From the IMG/VR virus record IMGVR_UViG_3300025655_000180, positions 1 through 31,119 of that record: 31,119 bases of DNA; one strand, given 5' to 3'. The translations under genes and the position numbers were made by a program. The notes under the pieces are model-generated. The model was not told the origin of the DNA. It saw only the letters and a list, made by a program, of their open reading frames with translations, and made no database searches. The stretch is from a virus. Every line of letters starts with the position of its first letter. Position 1 is the stretch's first letter. Shown one piece after another: positions 5,417-31,119 of this stretch.

Positions 5417-5488
5417 TCTTTTTTGCTAAACTCTCGATTTTGCTTTATTCTTACAAAAGTTGTGAAAAAGTCCGATTTTTTGAATACT

Positions 5489-5821
5489 ATGAATTTAGAA
5501 GAGCATAAGACGAGATTGTGCAAAGCTATTTATTTGATGTTCAAGGATGAGGATCTTGTGTACATCGGCATGACTGACAATGTCCCGATCCGCATCAAAA
5601 CGCACAACATCGTTAGAAAATCGGAGTACGATTCGTGTTTTTACCTTTCTTTTCCTTTTGAGACTGGACGAGATGGTGGAATATCTAAAGCAGTCGAAAA
5701 GGCTTTGATTAAACATTTCAAACCACCGCTCAACAAAGACGAAATAAAAAACCCTCTAACTTTTCCAGAAGTGTGGCTTATCCGGCAGCTTTTTGGTGAT
5801 GACGTAAAGATTGAGTACTGA
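5489..5821 (+). CDS. Small GIY-YIG-like nuclease domain protein
   Basis: The 110-residue product is almost only a GIY-YIG-type domain. AIYLMFKDEDLVYIGMT gives the paired strands with Y-L and Y-I-G, followed by a conserved arginine (NVPIRIKTH) and, later, the metal-binding glutamate in AVEKALIKHFKPPLN. The first half-motif is degenerate (YLM instead of GIY), which is common in this superfamily. Such stand-alone domains act as homing or host-DNA-degrading endonucleases, but the target is unknown. I chose the ATG at 5489; the frame is open further upstream to a TTG at 5423. Neither start has a good ribosome site. It is the first rightward gene after the putative origin. Confidence 0.7.
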   Translation: MNLEEHKTRLCKAIYLMFKDEDLVYIGMTDNVPIRIKTHNIVRKSEYDSCFYLSFPFETGRDGGISKAVEKALIKHFKPPLNKDEIKNPLTFPEVWLIRQLFGDDVKIEY

Positions 5822-6309: not shown

Positions 6310-6337
6310 TTACAATTAATCTAATTATAGGTATACT
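6310..6337 (+). promoter_or_regulatory. Candidate promoter for the small-gene block
   Basis: TTACAA (6310-6315), a 16-base spacer and TATACT (6332-6337) predict a start near 6344. It sits between the terminator at 6240 and the gene at 6373, in an AT-rich stretch, so it is well placed to restart transcription. Confidence 0.5.
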
Positions 6338-6372
6338 GAAAATATAGGAAACAAAAACGAAAGGTAAACGAG

Positions 6373-6582: not shown

Positions 6583-6626
6583 GCAAAAGCCCTGAGCAAG
6601 GCTGAAAACTGCTCAAAAAACACTAA

Positions 6627-6648
6627 ACGAAAGGTAAACGAAAGGTAA
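6627..6648 (+). repeat. Tandem 11-bp duplication of the ribosome-binding cassette
   Basis: ACGAAAGGTAA occurs twice head to tail (6627-6637, 6638-6648), then ACGAGATGG begins the next gene. The single-copy form lies before the gene at 6373, and shorter versions precede the gene at 6876 and the leftward recT gene. The first copy lies about 20 bases from the ATG, too far to act as an ordinary ribosome site. Confidence 0.85.
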
Positions 6649-6653
6649 ACGAG

Positions 6654-6857
6654 ATGGTAATTAAAAAAGACATTAATTCAGTCGGGCAAGTAAGTGCAAC
6701 AATTGACCTGAGCCCGAAGGTTCAGGTATGGCACTTTAGAACTGGTACTCATAGTACCAATATGGTGCTCTGGAAACAGAGTGACCATGTAATCAAATAT
6801 AGATTTGATACGCTGTTACAGGCGTATCAAAGAGCTAAAAGGCTCTTAAAATATTAG
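6654..6857 (+). CDS. Small unknown protein, possible paralogue of its neighbour
   Basis: The 67-residue product begins MVIKKDINSVGQVSATIDL, has beta-like segments with aromatic residues (KVQVWHFRTGTHSTNMVLW) and ends in a basic helix (AYQRAKRLLKY). It is unrecognised. It is preceded by the duplicated ACGAAAGGTAA cassette and by an imperfect hairpin (TGAGCA/TGCTCA, within 6597-6625). The shared leader and the weak similarity at the C-terminus suggest that it and the gene at 6373 arose by cassette duplication. Confidence 0.6.
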   Translation: MVIKKDINSVGQVSATIDLSPKVQVWHFRTGTHSTNMVLWKQSDHVIKYRFDTLLQAYQRAKRLLKY

Positions 6858-6875
6858 GAAACGAAAGGTAAATAT

Positions 6876-7074: not shown

Positions 7075-7102
7075 AGCCCACTGTAAAAGGTGGGTTTTTT
7101 TT
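7075..7102 (+). terminator. Rho-independent terminator
   Basis: CCCAC (7077-7081) and GTGGG (7090-7094) pair around an eight-base loop, and eight T follow at 7095-7102. It ends the unit containing the first ribbon-helix-helix gene. Confidence 0.85.
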
Positions 7103-7150
7103 ATCGCTACCACATATGTTAAAATAGATTCTTTCAAAAAAAATTCTCCA

Positions 7151-7172
7151 TCGTGTTACATCGTGTTACAAT
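7151..7172 (+). promoter_or_regulatory. Promoter overlapped by tandem GTTACA operators
   Basis: TCGTGTTACA occurs twice head to tail (7151-7160, 7161-7170). The second copy runs into TG-T-TACAAT (7164-7172), a good extended -10 box, so the motif and promoter overlap. A start about seven bases on would coincide with the ATG at 7180. The ten-base period puts both copies on one face of the helix. An alternative extended -10, TG-T-TAAAAT, lies at 7117-7125 and would give a leadered transcript. Confidence 0.5.
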
Positions 7173-7179
7173 CTTCGGC

Positions 7180-7320
7180 ATGGAACGAGAAGCCCCAAAA
7201 AATTCATTTTTGCAGTGCAGAGTAACAGAAGCCGAAAAGCGCAGAATTAAAGAATTTTGCAAGATTCACCGGTTAAGTATTGCGGAGCTTCTACTTGAGG
7301 CGGTCAGAAATGGGCGTTAA
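7180..7320 (+). CDS. Short ribbon-helix-helix protein, probable regulator
   Basis: I translated this 46-residue product: it starts MEREAPKNSFLQCRVTEAEK and ends EAVRNGR. The FLQCRVTEAEKRRIKEF stretch followed by an HRLSIAELLLEAV helix matches a ribbon-helix-helix fold. It aligns with the longer product at 6876 but lacks the GRPKGS arm. No clear ribosome site precedes it, and the extended -10 at 7164-7172 ends seven bases before the ATG, so translation could be leaderless. Its upstream tandem GTTACA repeats match the intergenic origin cluster, so it is the best local candidate for the protein that binds them. The next gene overlaps its end by 11 bases. Confidence 0.65.
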   Translation: MEREAPKNSFLQCRVTEAEKRRIKEFCKIHRLSIAELLLEAVRNGR

Positions 7321-8153: not shown

Positions 8154-9389
8154 ATGGCTCGATTGATTAAAACCGCTTTTTTAGAAGATGATGTTATTAA
8201 TTCAGCGAAACTCGCTGATGGTGCGGTAGTTGCAGCAGCTCTTGGATCTGGTGCAGTAGTAGAAGCAAAAATTGGTTCCGGCGCAGTTACTAACGCTAAA
8301 CTTGGTGCTGACGCTGTAAATGGCGATAAAATCGCTGATGATTCGATTGATTCCGAGCATTTGGTCGATGGCAGCATTGACAATGCTCACCTATCCGCTG
8401 ATTCAGTTTCAGCCGACAAATTAAAAATCGCTTACGGTGATTCTGTACGATTTGTAAATTCTGCCGGTTCGGTTGTAGGTCTTTCAATCGATAGTGATGG
8501 AGATCTAGTAGGCCCAGACACCAACAAGGTTGCTAGCCAGTCTTATGTAAGTACTGCTATCTCAAATCTCGTGAATGGAGCGCCTGGAATTCTTGATACT
8601 TTAGACGAAATTGCGCAAAGTATCGGCGACGATGCAAATTTTGCGACAACAGTAGCGAATTTAGTAAATTCTGTGGAGAGTTCGGCAGGGCTTAACAGCG
8701 ATGGATCATATACTAGCCCAGGAGGGACTTATCTAGGTTCCGAAACTACCTTAAAAGGTGGATTATCTACTTTAGATTCAAGCCTTTCAAGTGCTGTCAC
8801 TTCGTTGACTAGTTCAATATCAAGTAATGTTAGCAGCCTTGAAGGTAAGATCAATACTGTTGAAGCCTCTGTTGGTTTAGCTGCTGACGGTTCATATACT
8901 GCTTTCAGCGGTTCGAACTACATGGATACAGCTACTAGCATCACTGGAGCTTTAGAAGATCTAGATGCTCAAGCAGCAACTAATGCCGGTGGAATCACAA
9001 GTCTCAACAGCTCTGTAACTAGCATAAACAGCAGCATCACTAGCATCAACAGCGATATATCGACTGTTGAAGGTAAAGCCGACAGAGCTTTAGCTGTTGT
9101 ACCAAAGCAGGACGTGATTGTGATCTCCGCTGATGACATCACTAATAGCACTGTATCCTTTGATCTGAATTTCTTGGCAAGATGGCATGATCGTGTTGTC
9201 GTTCAATATGGTAACTTGATTCTAGTGCCTGGTGCTTCTTACGATTTTCAAGTAAGCAGCGATGCGACTAATCAAGATACAACTATCACTCTTTCAAGTG
9301 ATTACGCACAAGCCGGAGGCAAGCCTTTATCACAGGGTGATGTTCTCGTCGTTCGTTACGATTATGACAGCAGCTTTACTTACGCTTAA
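8154..9389 (+). CDS. Fibre-like structural protein with DGAV repeats and coiled coil
   Basis: The 411-residue product has a fibrous architecture. Residues about 10-90 hold roughly ten-residue repeats (LADGAVVAAALGSGAVVEAK; AVTNAKLGADAVNGDK), as in phage fibre shafts. A block with LDTLDEIAQSIGDDANFATT follows, a signature often found in marine phage fibres. Next is a Ser/Asn-rich segment (LNSSVTSINSSITSINSD) with coiled-coil periodicity, and the C-terminal domain (about 318-408) ends in GDVLVVRYDYDSS, like the 7310 and 9462 products. It starts with a strong AAAGGAG site. It is probably a trimeric virion appendage; lying upstream of terminase is unusual. A terminator follows. Confidence 0.75.
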   Translation: MARLIKTAFLEDDVINSAKLADGAVVAAALGSGAVVEAKIGSGAVTNAKLGADAVNGDKIADDSIDSEHLVDGSIDNAHLSADSVSADKLKIAYGDSVRFVNSAGSVVGLSIDSDGDLVGPDTNKVASQSYVSTAISNLVNGAPGILDTLDEIAQSIGDDANFATTVANLVNSVESSAGLNSDGSYTSPGGTYLGSETTLKGGLSTLDSSLSSAVTSLTSSISSNVSSLEGKINTVEASVGLAADGSYTAFSGSNYMDTATSITGALEDLDAQAATNAGGITSLNSSVTSINSSITSINSDISTVEGKADRALAVVPKQDVIVISADDITNSTVSFDLNFLARWHDRVVVQYGNLILVPGASYDFQVSSDATNQDTTITLSSDYAQAGGKPLSQGDVLVVRYDYDSSFTYA

Positions 9390-9416
9390 GTTTTAGTTCT
9401 ATCTAACGATAGTTAG

Positions 9417-9441
9417 GGCAGTCTTCGGACTGCCTTTTTTT
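9417..9441 (+). terminator. Rho-independent terminator with TTCG loop
   Basis: GGCAGTC (9417-9423), loop TTCG, and GACTGCC (9428-9434) form a perfect seven-pair stem, and seven T follow at 9435-9441. It separates the fibre-like gene from the late structural run. Confidence 0.95.
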
Positions 9442-9446
9442 ATTTC

Positions 9447-9455
9447 TGGTATAAT
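9447..9455 (+). promoter_or_regulatory. Extended -10 promoter, probably giving a leaderless transcript
   Basis: TG-G-TATAAT is a perfect extended -10 box. The ATG of the next gene begins seven bases after the final T, at the expected transcription start, and there is no ribosome site. It follows a terminator directly, so it is well placed to drive the late structural genes. No good -35 is present, which is normal for extended -10 promoters. Confidence 0.6.
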
Positions 9456-9461
9456 TAAATT

Positions 9462-10055
9462 ATGGCTATTTTTGCATCAAAAATTTCTGGGGAATTCAGA
9501 GAGTTGACGATAACTCAACAGACTGATACTTTTACGCTCGACTCTCAAACAATAGCAGACGGAAAAGTTCAACTCACAGCACAGCCCAGAGAAGACAAAA
9601 AAGTCAGGGCTTGGATTCAGACAAGCTCAGGTAATCTTTACCCAGAATTGCAAAACTACCATCTGATAGCCACAGGTGCGGATTTTGATATAATTGAACA
9701 GAACGAAAATTATTTTTTTCGTTTCGATGCAGAAACGCTAACCAGTACAATGCCTTCGGCAGGTAGTACCCTGACAGTTTTTTACGAGTTTGAAACTCAA
9801 GGTGATGAAGTGATAACAGATCCACAAGAAATAGCACAAGCCGTCTGGCAGACAAGTATTGCGAGTCAGTACGCATCTGAAATAATGCGCCGAATCTATC
9901 AGATAAATTCTGGAGCATGGAAGCTTGACGCAGAAACAAGAAGGCTCAAGTTTTACGACTCCGACGGCACGACCGTATTATTTGAATTTGACATGCTTGA
10001 TGCACAAGGTAATCCAACAGTCAGCAGCGTATTCGAAAGAAGGCCAAGAACATGA
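9462..10055 (+). CDS. Putative virion protein with shared beta domain
   Basis: The 197-residue product has an N-terminal beta domain (about 17-113) that ends in STLTVFYEFETQ, resembling the repeated unit in the products at 7310 and 8154. Its C-terminal part (WKLDAETRRLKFYDSDG, then FEFDMLDAQGNP) matches a recurring element in phage tail and head accessory proteins that describes a W-x-L-D strand pair followed by D-x-DG. The function is unknown. The ATG has no ribosome site but lies at the predicted transcription start, so leaderless translation is likely. It overlaps the next start as ATGA. Confidence 0.65.
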   Translation: MAIFASKISGEFRELTITQQTDTFTLDSQTIADGKVQLTAQPREDKKVRAWIQTSSGNLYPELQNYHLIATGADFDIIEQNENYFFRFDAETLTSTMPSAGSTLTVFYEFETQGDEVITDPQEIAQAVWQTSIASQYASEIMRRIYQINSGAWKLDAETRRLKFYDSDGTTVLFEFDMLDAQGNPTVSSVFERRPRT

Positions 10056-15539: not shown

Positions 15540-16274
15540 ATGTCTAAAGTTTTAACAGCTTATAGCGTTGAAGATTTTAACGAACTAAACGAAGATGATA
15601 AGAAGTTTTTAGTAGAGGAAGACGGAAAAGTATTCTATGACCCGTCACCACTTTTAAGAACTTTAGAGAATCAGAGAAAAGCCGAAAGAGAGGCAAAAGC
15701 GGAAGCGGAGCGAATCAAGGCGCAGATCGAAATATTAAAATCTGAAAACAGCAAAGCAGTGAAACCAGAAGAGAAGAACGAAGACCCACAAGATTCAGCG
15801 CAGCTTTTAGAGATGCAAAAAGCATTAAAAGCTATGCAGGATCAAATGAGCTTTGAGAGGCAGCAAAACGCAAAGCTGAAAATGCAGCAACAAACAGCAA
15901 GAGCAGCGGAGGCGGTTGGAATGCGCTCAGAGTGCGTAAAACTCTTCGAGGGACAGATAGCTTCTGATGACAGAGGTGCATTTGTTCTGGACGTGGACGG
16001 AACTCCAAAAATTGACCCCATGACGGGCGACAGAATAAGCATTGAAGATTATTTCAAGGATTATCTAAAATCTAATTCTTGGGCTAGTAAGGATGCAAGC
16101 TCTGGAGCAAGTTTCGAGGGTTCTGGGATTAGAGGACAAATCAACAAGGTACAAACTTCTAAAACTCAAGAGCGAGAAATACGCAAAGGGTATCAAGAGG
16201 CTGTACTCAGCGGAAATAAAAACGCAATACAAAAATTTAGGTTGAAGGCGATTAACGCCGGAATAAACTTATAA
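15540..16274 (+). CDS. Head scaffolding protein
   Basis: The 244-residue product is placed immediately before the capsid gene and looks like a scaffold. It begins MSKVLTAYSVEDFNEL and has a long charged helical region (REAKAEAERIKAQIEIL, then LEMQKALKAMQDQM) typical of coiled-coil scaffolds. It continues into a domain with GMRSECVKLFEGQ, and the C-terminus is basic. The scaffold directs capsid subunits into a correct prohead and then leaves or is degraded. I chose 15540 because AAGGAG lies seven bases upstream; the frame is open further up, through the hairpin repeats, but has no ribosome site. Confidence 0.8.
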   Translation: MSKVLTAYSVEDFNELNEDDKKFLVEEDGKVFYDPSPLLRTLENQRKAEREAKAEAERIKAQIEILKSENSKAVKPEEKNEDPQDSAQLLEMQKALKAMQDQMSFERQQNAKLKMQQQTARAAEAVGMRSECVKLFEGQIASDDRGAFVLDVDGTPKIDPMTGDRISIEDYFKDYLKSNSWASKDASSGASFEGSGIRGQINKVQTSKTQEREIRKGYQEAVLSGNKNAIQKFRLKAINAGINL

Positions 16275-17974: not shown

Positions 17975-18340
17975 ATGAAACAAGCATTCGTTAAAATGAA
18001 AAACAGTATTTTGAATGCTTTTGATGACTTTGTTGAATCAAGCGTATCATTAAAGTTCAATCCTACCACTACATACAACGCAGCCACCGGAGCAGCTACA
18101 GTTACATATTCAACTAATGAGACTGTAAAAGCTTACTTATCAGTTTACAAACGACAAGCCACAGGATTAGAAATAAAAGCCGGTGAGCTTAGACTCTTAT
18201 TAGACACAGTCAGCGAAGTACCGCCGAACAGCGAAATCACTGTGGGCTCAAAAGTGTATCGAGTGCTTGAGGTGCAGCCTATACCAAAAACAAATCAAAT
18301 CATGACAGAGTGTAAAGTCGAGGCGGTCAACAATGCTTAG
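17975..18340 (+). CDS. Head-closure protein (stopper)
   Basis: The 121-residue product resembles phage head-closure proteins: a short helical beginning, then a beta barrel with TYNAATGAATVTYSTNETVK and GSKVYRVLEVQPIPKTNQI. The order adaptor, closure, neck, tail terminator is the standard one in siphoviruses. It would seal the packaged head and offer the docking surface for the tail. The end overlaps the next start by eight bases. Sequence alone is weak; gene order raises confidence. Confidence 0.65.
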   Translation: MKQAFVKMKNSILNAFDDFVESSVSLKFNPTTTYNAATGAATVTYSTNETVKAYLSVYKRQATGLEIKAGELRLLLDTVSEVPPNSEITVGSKVYRVLEVQPIPKTNQIMTECKVEAVNNA

Positions 18341-18767
18341 CATGGATCTTGCCCGACTACAAAACACATTAAATAAGTATGTCGAAAAGACTAACGCAGC
18401 TCCAAGCAAAGCAACTAGGGGCGTTATGTTGTCCATCAACAGACAAACAATTTTAACAACACCGACAGACACCGGACGACTTGTAGGTAGTTGGATTATT
18501 TCAGCGAACCGGCCCAGTTCTTACGTTCCGACAGTTTCCAATCGAAGAATATCAGAACAAGCAGCTGCGGAAATAAAACGAAAAACGATAGAAAAGAATG
18601 CAAAGAAGTTAGAGCAGTTAAAAGACTTCTCCGGCGTTCTATATTTTACAACTGCTGTCAGATACGCAAAGATTGTAGAATTCGGAGCAGGACGTAGAGT
18701 TGGTAAATTCATGTTGTCAAAAGCGGTACAGATAGCAATTCAGAAAGTCCGGAATAAAATCGCATGA
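18333..18767 (+). CDS. Neck/tail completion protein (HK97 gp10-like)
   Basis: The 144-residue basic product has the family hallmark TPTDTGRLVGSWII (about 49-62), followed later by AVRYAKIVEFGAGRR and a final helix. This set is characteristic of HK97 gp10-type tail-completion proteins. It acts at the head-tail junction. GAGG-like bases upstream support the start at 18333; a second ATG at 18342 would shorten it by three residues. It overlaps the next start (ATGA). Confidence 0.8.
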   Translation: MLSMDLARLQNTLNKYVEKTNAAPSKATRGVMLSINRQTILTTPTDTGRLVGSWIISANRPSSYVPTVSNRRISEQAAAEIKRKTIEKNAKKLEQLKDFSGVLYFTTAVRYAKIVEFGAGRRVGKFMLSKAVQIAIQKVRNKIA

Positions 18768-24300: not shown

Positions 24301-25214
24301 AAACCGGAACCTTTGCGGAAACTCTCGCAAGTTTAGAAACTCAGCTAGACGAAAACTCTACAGCTACAAAAGAAACTAAGAAAGAGACGACAGATTTATC
24401 CAATACGCTTGTATCGACAACGAATCCAATATCCGTAGCAAATACCAACTTACAAGCAATCGCAAGTAATACAGAGCAAATTTTCGGTAAAATACTAGCA
24501 GATTCTAACGCATTAAAAGTGGCGTTAAATCAGGAAAAAGACGAATACACACAAAAGAAGTTAGAACTTGAACAAATAGAAACATTTGGTCAATACGTAG
24601 AAACAAATGGAAAACTTCAAGGGCTTACTCAAGCCGGTGGAATACTGCAATCTATTGTTGCCGGAGATGGTGACATAAAAATAGCAGCAGGAGGGCAAGA
24701 GGCGTATATAAAAAGGGCAGCCGGAACAGTACAAAGTTTTTATAATTCTTTTGGTGCGCTCGTTGGAACAATAACAAAAAATGAGTTCGGCGAAGAGATA
24801 TCTAATACTTTAGGCTCTAATATTTACGACAGCAGGAGAACGACAGAAACGACCAGATACATATATGATTATTTTGCCGGTGGTAAAACTCAGCAACTAG
24901 GTATCACATCTAGACCATTCGCACAGGGAGCCTGGAACATTAACGGAACCGTTCAGCCTGCAATGCTTCACAGGGGCGAGATGGTAATAAGACAAGATGA
25001 CGCACCGGCGGTACGTAGTTACTTAAGCAGCACAGGAGCAAGTAGCAAATACGGCGCACCTATGTCCGAGGCTCCGAGCTACGACACAGCCCGAACAATC
25101 GAGCTATTATCTCTAATACTTGAGCAGTTAAGAGACCAAAGAGATCCAACGGTCTACCTAAATGCTAGAAAAGTCAGCGAAGAATTGCAGAGATACAGAG
25201 GCTTAAGCGCATGA
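21363..25214 (+). CDS. Tail tape measure protein
   Basis: The 1,283-residue protein sets tail length and is the longest product here. Residues about 85-310 match the tape measure core (GASFEQQMAKVGAVSKATAE, ALEAMSRAGFKAQQSI, GGALLTLQQSGG). A hydrophobic stretch lies near 420-460. Long Gln/Lys-rich helical segments (about 530-640; KTKDLTDKTKDLN) and further coiled-coil blocks follow. The C-terminal signature PAMLHRGEMVI lies near 1197. At roughly 1.5 angstrom per residue the tail would be about 190 nm. Strong helical repeats with Ser/Thr runs suggest no protease domain. It overlaps the next gene by four bases. Many open frames lie opposite it; these are artefacts of its composition. Confidence 0.95.
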   Translation: MADIEVFGIGLDTSSAVRNAKNLEKALLDVSKSSGKVTKSGESMAGAMLKSQIAFAALSKAANFLTDQLKQSVTVGASFEQQMAKVGAVSKATAEQQKALSAAAKEMGRTTQFSATEAASALEAMSRAGFKAQQSIAALPKVLQLSAASGVSLGESADIVTNVMSSMGKQVSELSHVNNVLVETFTSSNTTLESLASSISYAGGIAATTGVSFEQLNGFLGIFGNAGVSGTRAGTALRQAMATLIDPTKKAADTLRSLNVEVGQNLVETLRDLERAGASSKDMIAIFGTEAGGALLTLQQSGGIAAVEEMAHQLKNVGDVADEIAKKQMDTLQGSFTKLSSAVEGIRISIFEDLIRDDLKIFIDGLTESIQNNEQSFRAVVEVGKIIVEQFTNIVGKTSDASGKVEDLTGKTTGLTEAFSFAGKVMLTLGEGFNFIIDTIGTATRVYAGFITTWAEGFGDASSILVTFGQLLKAGLTGNLTEAESFATALRGGIEDATDSAKNSLRTLGEDISGFADRTTAAIKRLDKGYLDLDKAARLQKKTTEEQTKAIDHNRDVVDDQTKAVGDQTKKTKDLTDKTKDLNTENDKATEAIKKVTQAQKQQEIATGRTTQAIERQAKTQIEAIQAQAQAAEVVERASRFPAGSSFGSDWSDYVKSQGFSIVTQAARPRATQPTQTMSFGGFGGGVQQTTQSSSNLSNLLTRYERLSEQITDFITKDVSLDIKLADAQQELRNLSVELASLNEGQLEERIKLSEQYFAQVQAVDRLQTQIAAQQQSALNQQQSSAEGIGGILDSVLADLNDLTVGDISGAIPVEKFDLLKKQFEATSAAIDKIDFSEITKADQELIAQFSNVSKTFLEQAKTVFGNDANYESMQNDVKKEFDDLAANLVTAMAAADPTTFEDNLNKLKTSFAFLDEATKNLTTSSEGAKDSISGDGNLNSSLAGLKTKSDSATSALSGDGKLNSSIDGLGTASTTTKTKTGTFAETLASLETQLDENSTATKETKKETTDLSNTLVSTTNPISVANTNLQAIASNTEQIFGKILADSNALKVALNQEKDEYTQKKLELEQIETFGQYVETNGKLQGLTQAGGILQSIVAGDGDIKIAAGGQEAYIKRAAGTVQSFYNSFGALVGTITKNEFGEEISNTLGSNIYDSRRTTETTRYIYDYFAGGKTQQLGITSRPFAQGAWNINGTVQPAMLHRGEMVIRQDDAPAVRSYLSSTGASSKYGAPMSEAPSYDTARTIELLSLILEQLRDQRDPTVYLNARKVSEELQRYRGLSA

Positions 25215-27145
25215 TACATTTAGAATGCAAACAAGACTTTTATACTAGCTCCACAGTTAGCTTTTCCGGCAATTCAATTGCAACAAGTGCAAATGATTTT
25301 TCCGGCTTCAATGTCGGCGACAAGATCATAATTAAGGGCAGCCTAAACGCAGCTAATGACGTGCAGCGTAAGATTGTAACCGTTTCATCATCTGCTTTAG
25401 TGGTAGACGGCGCAGCACTTACAACGCAATCAGCAGGACTTGAAATAACTATTCAAAAGATCGAATTCTTCTCTGATCCAGACGGTTATTATCAAGACCA
25501 GAGAGGAACCACACAGTACTTTTTTTGCGGAATTATAAACTTCGGTGAGGTGAGTTATACAGAGGATAGCGGATTTGTGAAGCTGAACGATGGAACAGTA
25601 ACGTTAAAGCGAAAAGGCTTACTAGGCGAAGACGGCCAGACTATTTTCGACTTGTCCGATAAAACAAAACTATTTGAATTCTACGTTAAATTCGACAGCT
25701 TTGTTTTGTTTGATAATGTCAAGGGAATCATCCGAGATCTTGACGAGCTTTCGATAGTTTTTCAACTCAAGTCAGATATCTATGATTCTGATTGGCTTGA
25801 TCCGGCGCAGGATATCAATAACCCGAGTTCTTTTACTCAAGGGCGAGTACTGCCAAAGGTTATAGGTACATTAAATAATTTTAGCCCCCTATTGCAAGAC
25901 GACAATAATTTAGAATATTACACAGGAGGCACAACTTTAACGGCAGTTTATGAGGGTGCACAATATAGAGCTTTTGAAAATGTCACGACTAGTTACACCT
26001 ATCCGCAGGACATAAATTACGGCGATTATCATTACACAAGAACAAACAACGCCGGAACAGCGACAATGAGCCCAACAGGAGCGAATACAAATAATACAGA
26101 TTGGTCACACCACGGAGCAGCAGATCCGGCATACGACGACTTCGAGTCAACTGCTTTTAATTTCACTTTGCAAGGACTAGCACCAGTTAATGAGATTTCG
26201 ATAGACATTCAAGGCGAATACAACACGCTAGAGACTTTAGCCGAAACCCTTTCGGGGCTTGTTCAAGTCAGAGATCAAAAGCTTATCAACAATACGATAA
26301 GCTTCACAGCATCAACAAAGCGTATAAGCTCCACAAGTCCGATATTTCTAGGTTTTACAGGAGCTGATACCGATATCACAGGTCAAAGAATAGAGATATC
26401 TGGAAGTACGTCGAATAACGGTTATTATAGAATCAGCTCAGTCGATGCGTCTGGATATTATGTTGTCGTGACCGGTACGCTTGTAGATGAGTCAGCAGGA
26501 AACACCGTAACGCTTCAAGGCTACTATGGATTCAGTAAAGAGCACTCAAGCGCAACCGCAGCGATTAATTATGGTTTTGTAACTCAGCAAAAAATACTCG
26601 ATGTTTTGAAGGGAATTTGTGCATATCACGAGCACATATTTATATTTGATCGAGCAGCTAAATTAATGTATTTGATCGACAAAGAGCAATATTCAAGTAG
26701 TAAATCGCTCGATCAGTATTCAATCAATCGTGATGAGGGCGTAAGCTATCTTACAAAAGATGTTTTATTTTCTTTTGCTAGTAACTGGATCCAGAGAATA
26801 GCAATTGCAAGCCCTCAAAGCGTTTTGAATCTAGAGACAAAAACGGAAGTTACAACCGGTATCGACGTGGGCACAACTGAAACAGTACAGGCATTTGATT
26901 TGAATGCAAGTGCTATAACAACAGCACTGACAAAAAAGAAGGATCTTTTTTTAGACTGGGACAGAATTCAGATTGTTTACACAATTGACGGCGAAGGAAT
27001 AGACAGTTCGATATTTCCAGGCCAACGGGTGCAATTTACTGATTGGATTAGCGGAGATCTACACATCCAAGAAATAGCTTGGGACTTTTCAAGCGGTCAA
27101 ACAACCATTCGAGGAATAGCGCAGAACATAACTTTTGGAGATTAG
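25211..27145 (+). CDS. Tail tip/baseplate protein with inserted beta domains
   Basis: The 644-residue product follows the tape measure, where distal tail or hub genes lie. It is not matched to one family with certainty. Two copies of a small beta domain are visible: residues about 14-84 (FNVGDKIIIKGSLNAAND, then TQSAGLEITIQKI) and about 359-440 (ITGQRIEISGSTSNNGYYRI, then LVDESAGNTVTLQGY). The C-terminal part has IQIVYTIDGEGIDSSIFPGQ, GDLHIQEIAWDF and a final strand set like tail hub proteins. It overlaps the tape measure end. It probably sits at the tail tip and joins the fibre. Confidence 0.65.
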   Translation: MIHLECKQDFYTSSTVSFSGNSIATSANDFSGFNVGDKIIIKGSLNAANDVQRKIVTVSSSALVVDGAALTTQSAGLEITIQKIEFFSDPDGYYQDQRGTTQYFFCGIINFGEVSYTEDSGFVKLNDGTVTLKRKGLLGEDGQTIFDLSDKTKLFEFYVKFDSFVLFDNVKGIIRDLDELSIVFQLKSDIYDSDWLDPAQDINNPSSFTQGRVLPKVIGTLNNFSPLLQDDNNLEYYTGGTTLTAVYEGAQYRAFENVTTSYTYPQDINYGDYHYTRTNNAGTATMSPTGANTNNTDWSHHGAADPAYDDFESTAFNFTLQGLAPVNEISIDIQGEYNTLETLAETLSGLVQVRDQKLINNTISFTASTKRISSTSPIFLGFTGADTDITGQRIEISGSTSNNGYYRISSVDASGYYVVVTGTLVDESAGNTVTLQGYYGFSKEHSSATAAINYGFVTQQKILDVLKGICAYHEHIFIFDRAAKLMYLIDKEQYSSSKSLDQYSINRDEGVSYLTKDVLFSFASNWIQRIAIASPQSVLNLETKTEVTTGIDVGTTETVQAFDLNASAITTALTKKKDLFLDWDRIQIVYTIDGEGIDSSIFPGQRVQFTDWISGDLHIQEIAWDFSSGQTTIRGIAQNITFGD

Positions 27146-30375: not shown

Positions 30376-30855
30376 ATGGCATTAACTGAAAAACAATACA
30401 TTAACAAAATCGAGTTTTTACATACTGGTGACGTGCAAGTCAGGGAATCAACAGAAGTGTACAGAGATGAGCAAATGATTGCTCAGGAATACCATAGACG
30501 TGTAGTTTCTGCTGATGAGCAACTTGACGGCCCACTAGCGGAACGCTTGGAGGGTATACAGCTTGAAGTTGTTGCCGAGCGTAACAGCTTGAGAGAAGAG
30601 AAAGCAAAGCTAGAAACACAGAAAGCAGATCTTGAAAAGCAAGTTAGCGACAAGGACGCAGAGCTTCAAGCAAAAGACGCAGAACTCCAGAAAGCACAAG
30701 AAGAGCATCAAAAAACTATAGAGAATTACGATTTACTTGTAGAAGCTAAAAAGCTAGTCGAAGATGAGCTTGCACTTGCTAAGCAAGAGTTAGAAAGTCT
30801 AAAGCCAATCGAAGATGCACAAGAAGAGGTACAAGAACAAGAGGTGCAGGCATGA
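30376..30855 (+). CDS. Coiled-coil tail-associated protein, unknown
   Basis: The 159-residue product starts MALTEKQYINKIEFLHTGDV, a short beta-like N-terminal segment resembling a common phage protein domain. Then residues about 65-145 form a long coiled coil (EEKAKLETQKADLEKQVSDK) with a highly acidic end (EEVQEQEVQA). A strong GGAG site is present. It overlaps the next start by four bases. It may attach to the fibre or help its folding. Confidence 0.65.
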   Translation: MALTEKQYINKIEFLHTGDVQVRESTEVYRDEQMIAQEYHRRVVSADEQLDGPLAERLEGIQLEVVAERNSLREEKAKLETQKADLEKQVSDKDAELQAKDAELQKAQEEHQKTIENYDLLVEAKKLVEDELALAKQELESLKPIEDAQEEVQEQEVQA

Positions 30856-31064
30856 AAAAGGAAATCAAAACAAAACTGAAAGAAGAAAAGCTTGACGGTA
30901 AAAAGCTTGTAACAGAGCTAGTCGTACATCTTCAAGACGGGCGAGAAGTCGGCAGAGAAAAGCGAGTATACGAAGTTGCAGAAAAGCAGCCGGAAAAAAA
31001 GCTAAGTAAATCAGCTAAAGATATCGTTCTTGGGGCTCTCCAAGGTGCGGAAAAATTGGTATAA
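30852..31064 (+). CDS. Small basic protein, unknown
   Basis: The 70-residue product is charged (MKKEIKTKLKEEKLDGKK) and beta-helical in appearance, with TELVVHLQDGREVGREKRVY in the middle and a small helical end (LSKSAKDIVLGALQGAEKLV). It overlaps the coiled-coil gene as ATGA. Its stop lies inside the next promoter. It is not recognised. Confidence 0.6.
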   Translation: MKKEIKTKLKEEKLDGKKLVTELVVHLQDGREVGREKRVYEVAEKQPEKKLSKSAKDIVLGALQGAEKLV

Positions 31065-31065
31065 T
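31057..31065 (+). promoter_or_regulatory. Extended -10 promoter, probably leaderless
   Basis: TG-G-TATAAT is identical to the box at 9447-9455, and again the ATG starts exactly seven bases after its last T. The stop codon of the preceding gene lies inside it (TAA at 31062-31064). No ribosome site precedes the ATG. Confidence 0.55.
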
Positions 31066-31071
31066 AGTGTT

Positions 31072-31119
31072 ATGCAAATACAGGATAGAGTTTTGATGCT
31101 AGAAAAAGACGTTAAACAT
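31072..31119 (+). CDS. Start of a further gene, possibly XhlA-like; cut by window end
   Basis: Only 16 codons are visible: MQIQDRVLMLEKDVKH. The helical pattern with LEKDV is common at the start of XhlA-type cell-surface or holin-associated proteins, but also in many coiled-coil proteins. No ribosome site precedes it. A leaderless start from the promoter at 31057 is likely. The identity is tentative. Confidence 0.35.
   Translation, partial: MQIQDRVLMLEKDVKH

Follow-up and report, generated by a model that had tools for sequence, protein, structure and literature searches.

Can a promoter lie so close to a start codon that the messenger begins with the AUG itself, and is this layout a general device of the phage that carries it? 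The question arises at the right end of the window, the 31,119-nucleotide stretch of IMG/VR virus record IMGVR_UViG_3300025655_000180 that was analysed here. The extended -10 element TGGTATAAT (31057–31065, plus strand) is read directly in the sequence, matches TGnTATAAT at 8/8 positions and is followed by a 6-nt gap (AGTGTT, 31066–31071) and ATG 31072–31074. The stop codon TAA (31062–31064) of ORF 30852–31064 falls inside the -10 hexamer (31060–31065), with a TAG directly after it; the preliminary description had placed the stop in the same way. It had also claimed an exact recurrence at 9447–9464 and a similar arrangement before 7180, and both are found where it put them: TGGTATAAT (9447–9455, plus strand, 8/8), the 6-nt gap TAAATT and ATG 9462 in the first case, and TGTTACAAT (7164–7172, plus strand, 7/8), the 7-nt gap CTTCGGC and ATG 7180 in the second. 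Counted back from the start codon, the -10 hexamer is found some 12 bp away, with TATAAT at -12. Our reading, to which we give a probability of roughly 0.6, is that all three sites would be extended -10 promoters read by the host's sigma-70, and that the first gene of each unit would be expressed from an mRNA with no leader, or almost none.

The virus record ends 45 bases past the ATG codon 31072–31074. Another contig, IMGVR_UViG_3300022200_005669 (loci L003 and L015), matches the window over 10,268 bases at 99.97% identity and reaches beyond the window end, while contig 006644, from the same sample, is identical on the left side and extends past the window's first base. These two contigs overlap each other over 149 bases with one mismatch, which closes a circular map of about 34,463 bp.

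Recurrence, spacing and ribosome-binding sites

The simplest alternative is that the matches arose by chance in AT-rich sequence and were picked by eye. The G+C content of 41% speaks for it, as does the observation that TGNTATAAT by itself is only mildly over-represented (4 copies in the window versus 1.1 expected). The joint pattern TGNTATAAT-N6-ATG, however, is seen twice in the 34,463-bp composite genome against an expectation of 0.03 from 300 third-order Markov shuffles of both strands, none of which held more than one copy, and the spacing is conserved in a relative despite changed letters, as set out below; coincidence is accordingly very improbable. The genome scan proposed in the preliminary description, run as TGNTATAAT-N4..8-ATG over the whole window record, returns 9447 and 31057 as its only perfect sites, each on the plus strand, with no match for the reversed-pattern control. 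When the best TGnTATAAT match at gaps of 5–8 nt is scored before 36 gene starts, the flagged starts reach 8, 8 and 7 of 8 and the next best only 5 (the start used for the GIY-YIG gene, really at about 5489, was off by a few bases, which leaves the result unaffected). Allowing one mismatch adds a single plus-strand site, TGTTAAAAT-N6-ATG at about L003:11823. A minus-strand TGAAATAAT-N5-ATG at 16056 also recurs in relatives, but it lies antisense inside a coding gene and was set aside as a by-product of coding conservation.

The perfect sites lack a recognisable -35 box, and among the two-hexamer sites listed by a promoter scan none ends at 9455 or 31065. The -35 region of site 9447 falls within the stem of a terminator, so an extended -10 promoter, able to work without a -35 box, would fit this site. 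Transcription by sigma-70 RNA polymerase usually begins some 7 bases downstream of the final T of the -10 box; the 6-nt gap therefore places the predicted start on the A of the ATG. An ordinary sigma-70 promoter is seen elsewhere in the window, on the minus strand at 1731–1702 upstream of a RecT-like gene (TTGACA-18-TAGAAT, 11/12), and its sequence suggests that the phage relies on host RNA polymerase.

The host is a Shine–Dalgarno (SD)-using one, since most starts carry a recognisable SD site: 28 of the 35 correctly placed starts have an SD energy of -3.0 kcal/mol or lower, compared with a random median of -0.7. The three flagged starts are among the other seven, with -2.8 (9462), -2.8 (31072) and +0.6 kcal/mol (7180), in agreement with the earlier statement that no ribosome site precedes these ATGs; both values of -2.8 come from 3 bp of pairing in which the GGT of the -10 box itself appears to take part. 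It is important to note that the missing SD site is consistent with leaderless initiation but is not independent evidence for it, because a -10 box in that place by itself excludes an SD site. The idea of a class of leaderless transcripts thus gains from recurrence beyond chance, from spacing conserved at two of the three sites, from the lack of SD sites and from a gap that puts the predicted +1 on the A of the ATG. Its description as phage-wide was overstated: most genes are SD-led, and the layout is confined to three starts, perhaps four, all of them at the head of a unit. Elsewhere in the genome, near-identical leaders (ACGAAAGGTAAACGAG or variants) stand at 6333–6372, 6614–6653 and 6836–6875 before three successive small plus-strand ORFs, as if they had been duplicated.

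Conservation of the sites at 9447 and 7164

Sites 9447 and 7164 are both covered by a relative that consists of two overlapping loci (L007 and L014) with about 85% DNA identity. Site 9447 begins about 10 bases after the strong stem of an intrinsic terminator (9415–9436, plus strand, 90.9% conserved in L007) that closes the preceding unit; the segment 9405–9445 folds at -15.5 kcal/mol (z -4.7). Identity across the block 9404–9471 is 80–91% in L007/L014, compared with 30% and 42% (ungapped) in the flanking coding DNA. Within this block the TG, the TATAAT, the 6-nt gap, the ATG and the terminator are kept, while the n base (G/T) and the gap letters (TAAATT/AAAACT) differ, the element reading TGTTATAAT in L007. 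The gene behind it (9462–10055, plus strand) is a 197-aa ORF, the first of the head/tail block and predicted to be leaderless. Its start is conserved in L007/L014, and the L007 orthologue has no other in-frame start for 25 codons and an SD energy of +1.5 kcal/mol; for want of an alternative start, the ATG of the relative is very probably right. We judge it rather likely that all three sites are extended -10 promoters and that 9462 is translated from a leaderless mRNA. The coding sequence of 8154–9389 and of the first half of 9462–10055 is highly diverged between the relatives, in contrast to the regulatory DNA on its flanks and to the C-terminal part (one half) of the 9462 protein, which are kept; judged from this sequence pattern, the region is a rapidly changing tail-fibre-like module.

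At 7164, the block 7111–7170 is identical at 60/60 positions in L007, which also retains the -10 box, a gap of the same length and the ATG. The unit lies downstream of an intrinsic terminator (7075–7096, plus strand) and opens with a predicted leaderless gene (7180–7320, plus strand) for a 46-aa ribbon-helix-helix (RHH)-like protein, NikA-like at a score below cut-off, whose N-terminus is kept in L007. Two head-to-tail copies of TCGTGTTACA (7151–7170, plus strand) overlap the -10 element inside the identical block. These direct repeats are likely operator units of the RHH-like product, and 7111–7180 as a whole has the look of an operator for autoregulation. The perfectly conserved block also contains a second promoter-like element, TGTTAAAAT at about 7118, from which the leader would be about 50 nt long; because of this second element, we regard leaderless initiation at 7180 as evenly balanced.

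The interval 18413–18645 of the window diverges sharply from L015:394–611 in a contig that is otherwise 99.95% identical, the same contig is only 91% identical over 18020–18412, and several relatives break at about 18412/18656; the region of gene 18333–18767 is a candidate for a variable segment, or for a recombination or assembly junction. The locus L020:4432–5555 belongs to a different phage, which has relatives of the GIY-YIG gene (5423–5821) and of the endolysin in another gene order.

The start of the probable lysis block

At site 31057, the upstream 70-aa ORF (30852–31064, plus strand), which has its own SD site and whose stop overlaps the -10 box, matches no known family. The ORF that starts at 31072 is cut by the window end (31072–31119, plus strand) and is completed in IMGVR_UViG_3300022200_005669 (L003:10221–10412) as a 63-aa product that is coiled-coil-like towards its N-terminus and carries a hydrophobic transmembrane stretch at the C-terminal side. 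Next comes an ORF of 179 aa that starts with GTG and has two hydrophobic stretches, then one of 75 aa with a single such stretch. After these lies the gene of a 183-aa protein that matches Glucosaminidase PF01832 (35 bits versus a cut-off of 30.2) and a PHROG endolysin (2.6e-6). The genes from 31072 onward look like a lysis cassette, in which the small membrane ORFs may be holins or spanins, to judge by position and hydrophobicity. A holin family search with the three hydrophobic ORFs of the block gave no significant match, and an assignment of the 63-aa ORF as XhlA was not accepted (E 0.078, below cut-off).

Searches for a diverged relative covering 31057 found none, the only other contig being the 99.97% identical one. 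Scans with the 70-aa, 179-aa, 183-aa, 25211–27145 and resolvase proteins led to the near-identical contig, or to relatives that end short or have another gene order, and a DNA pattern search for terminator plus promoter matched only the two known contigs. Named phages share only a distant TerL (46%) and portal (23%), with no match to the 179-aa protein among them; portal and TerL searches of genome contigs for prophage or host hints also gave no match.

The promoter at 31057 could be real and translation could nevertheless begin further in, at the in-frame ATG 31096 (codon 9), on an mRNA that has a normal leader of 24 nt; leaderless initiation would then be limited to 9462 and perhaps 7180. 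This start is preceded by a weak SD site, AGGA (31082–31085), the whole spanning 31082–31098 on the plus strand, and the energy of ACAGGATAGAGTTTTG-ATG, -4.1 kcal/mol, comes close to the -4.3 that marks the top 10% of random sites. Yet the 10-nt gap between AGGA and the ATG is unusually long, 31072 has precisely the spacing of 9462, a gene without such a second start in the relative, and codons 1–8, in our reading, carry on the hydrophobic spacing of the coiled-coil part. We hold a start at 31096 to be unlikely.

A shade less probable again is the absence of any promoter at 31057, with the 63-aa ORF translated by termination–reinitiation from the 70-aa ORF on a long late mRNA. There is indeed no terminator before 31057, and the stop TAA is separated from ATG 31072 by a 7-nt gap, as such coupling would have it. 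A perfect 8/8 extended -10 element at the exact spacing of 9447 is very unlikely by chance, though, and at 9447 the same layout comes after a terminator, which makes coupling to an upstream gene implausible there. We retain the promoter with a leaderless transcript as our reading of 31072 and think it somewhat probable, short of the confidence we have at 9462. Leaderless translation is nonetheless least certain here among the three starts, given the in-frame ATG with a weak SD site eight codons on, the lack of a diverged relative and the possible coupling upstream.

A proposed transcription scheme and its known counterparts

In the scheme that we propose, the 18-bp element would serve host sigma-70 as an extended -10 promoter that has no recognisable -35 box, and RNA polymerase would begin at the A of the ATG or about a base away from it. 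This compact layout would head three plus-strand units: 7180 for the RHH regulator, 9462 for the head/tail block and 31072 for the lysis block. In each, the leading gene would be translated from a leaderless mRNA through 70S initiation, and the genes behind it from ordinary SD sites. The promoter at 31057 would lie inside the late block, and the lysis genes could be both read through from upstream and expressed from a transcript of their own. A more far-reaching idea is that the lineage gives leaderless mRNAs to the first genes of its structural and lysis units, and that the timing or amount of virion and lysis proteins tracks the state of the 70S ribosome pool (for instance under stress or late in infection); we count this as a long shot. 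Among the open-access papers listed by our searches, none dealt with leaderless late phage genes, and those consulted describe no such translation-level switch for late genes.

Sigma-70 extended -10 promoters (TGnTATAAT, -35 independent) usually precede a leader with an SD site. The sites described here resemble them in the perfect TGnTATAAT and the lack of a recognisable -35 box, but differ in having no SD leader before the ATG. Leaderless initiation itself was found in lambda, where cI, transcribed from PRM, is its standard example (PMC3160421). In phage PY54 the cI and cro mRNAs begin at their AUG, as mapped by RACE, and the promoter of cro directly precedes the start codon (PMC4488713). 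According to another phage study, phage transcripts are 'often leaderless' (PMC5312081), and translation of leaderless mRNAs in the presence of kasugamycin has been reported (PMC5230787). Our phage would share with these systems the use of host RNA polymerase, a promoter directly before the start codon and an mRNA that (here by prediction) starts from the AUG. In contrast to the PY54 starts, mapped by RACE, those of this phage are predicted only, and we infer rather than map promoter activity, the +1 position and leaderless translation. A further difference is that lambda cI and PY54 cI and cro are repressors of the lysogeny switch, whereas two of our three candidates open head/tail and lysis units.

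Among bacteria, Deinococcus commonly has -10 boxes adjacent to ORFs, and these give leaderless mRNA (PMC12340547). The sites are akin to the TA-led or -10-motif leaderless genes of Deinococcus–Thermus and Actinobacteria, in which a TANNNT hexamer some 12 bp ahead of the start replaces the SD site (PMC3160421, PMC12340547); unlike them, the phage has a full TATAAT with a TG extension, as a minority layout in a mostly SD-led genome. The layout is thus established in other phages and bacteria, and its use at structural and lysis units is mildly unusual. If our reading holds, late structural and lysis genes join the known leaderless genes of phages, which in the cited examples are mostly repressors; if not, the sites represent ordinary promoter anatomy. 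For this uncultured lineage of phages the analysis provides a sharp, testable map of predicted promoters, and it corrects for gene starts that callers relying on SD sites could get wrong.

To the right of the window, between the lysis block and minus-strand genes, L003:11823–11945 combines TGTTAAAAT-N6-ATG, a 15-codon ORF and a strongly folded stretch with a terminator-like hairpin end (-38 kcal/mol, z -5.6). An Rfam search returned nothing credible and the folded stretch has no Rfam family; it is a candidate small RNA or leader peptide.
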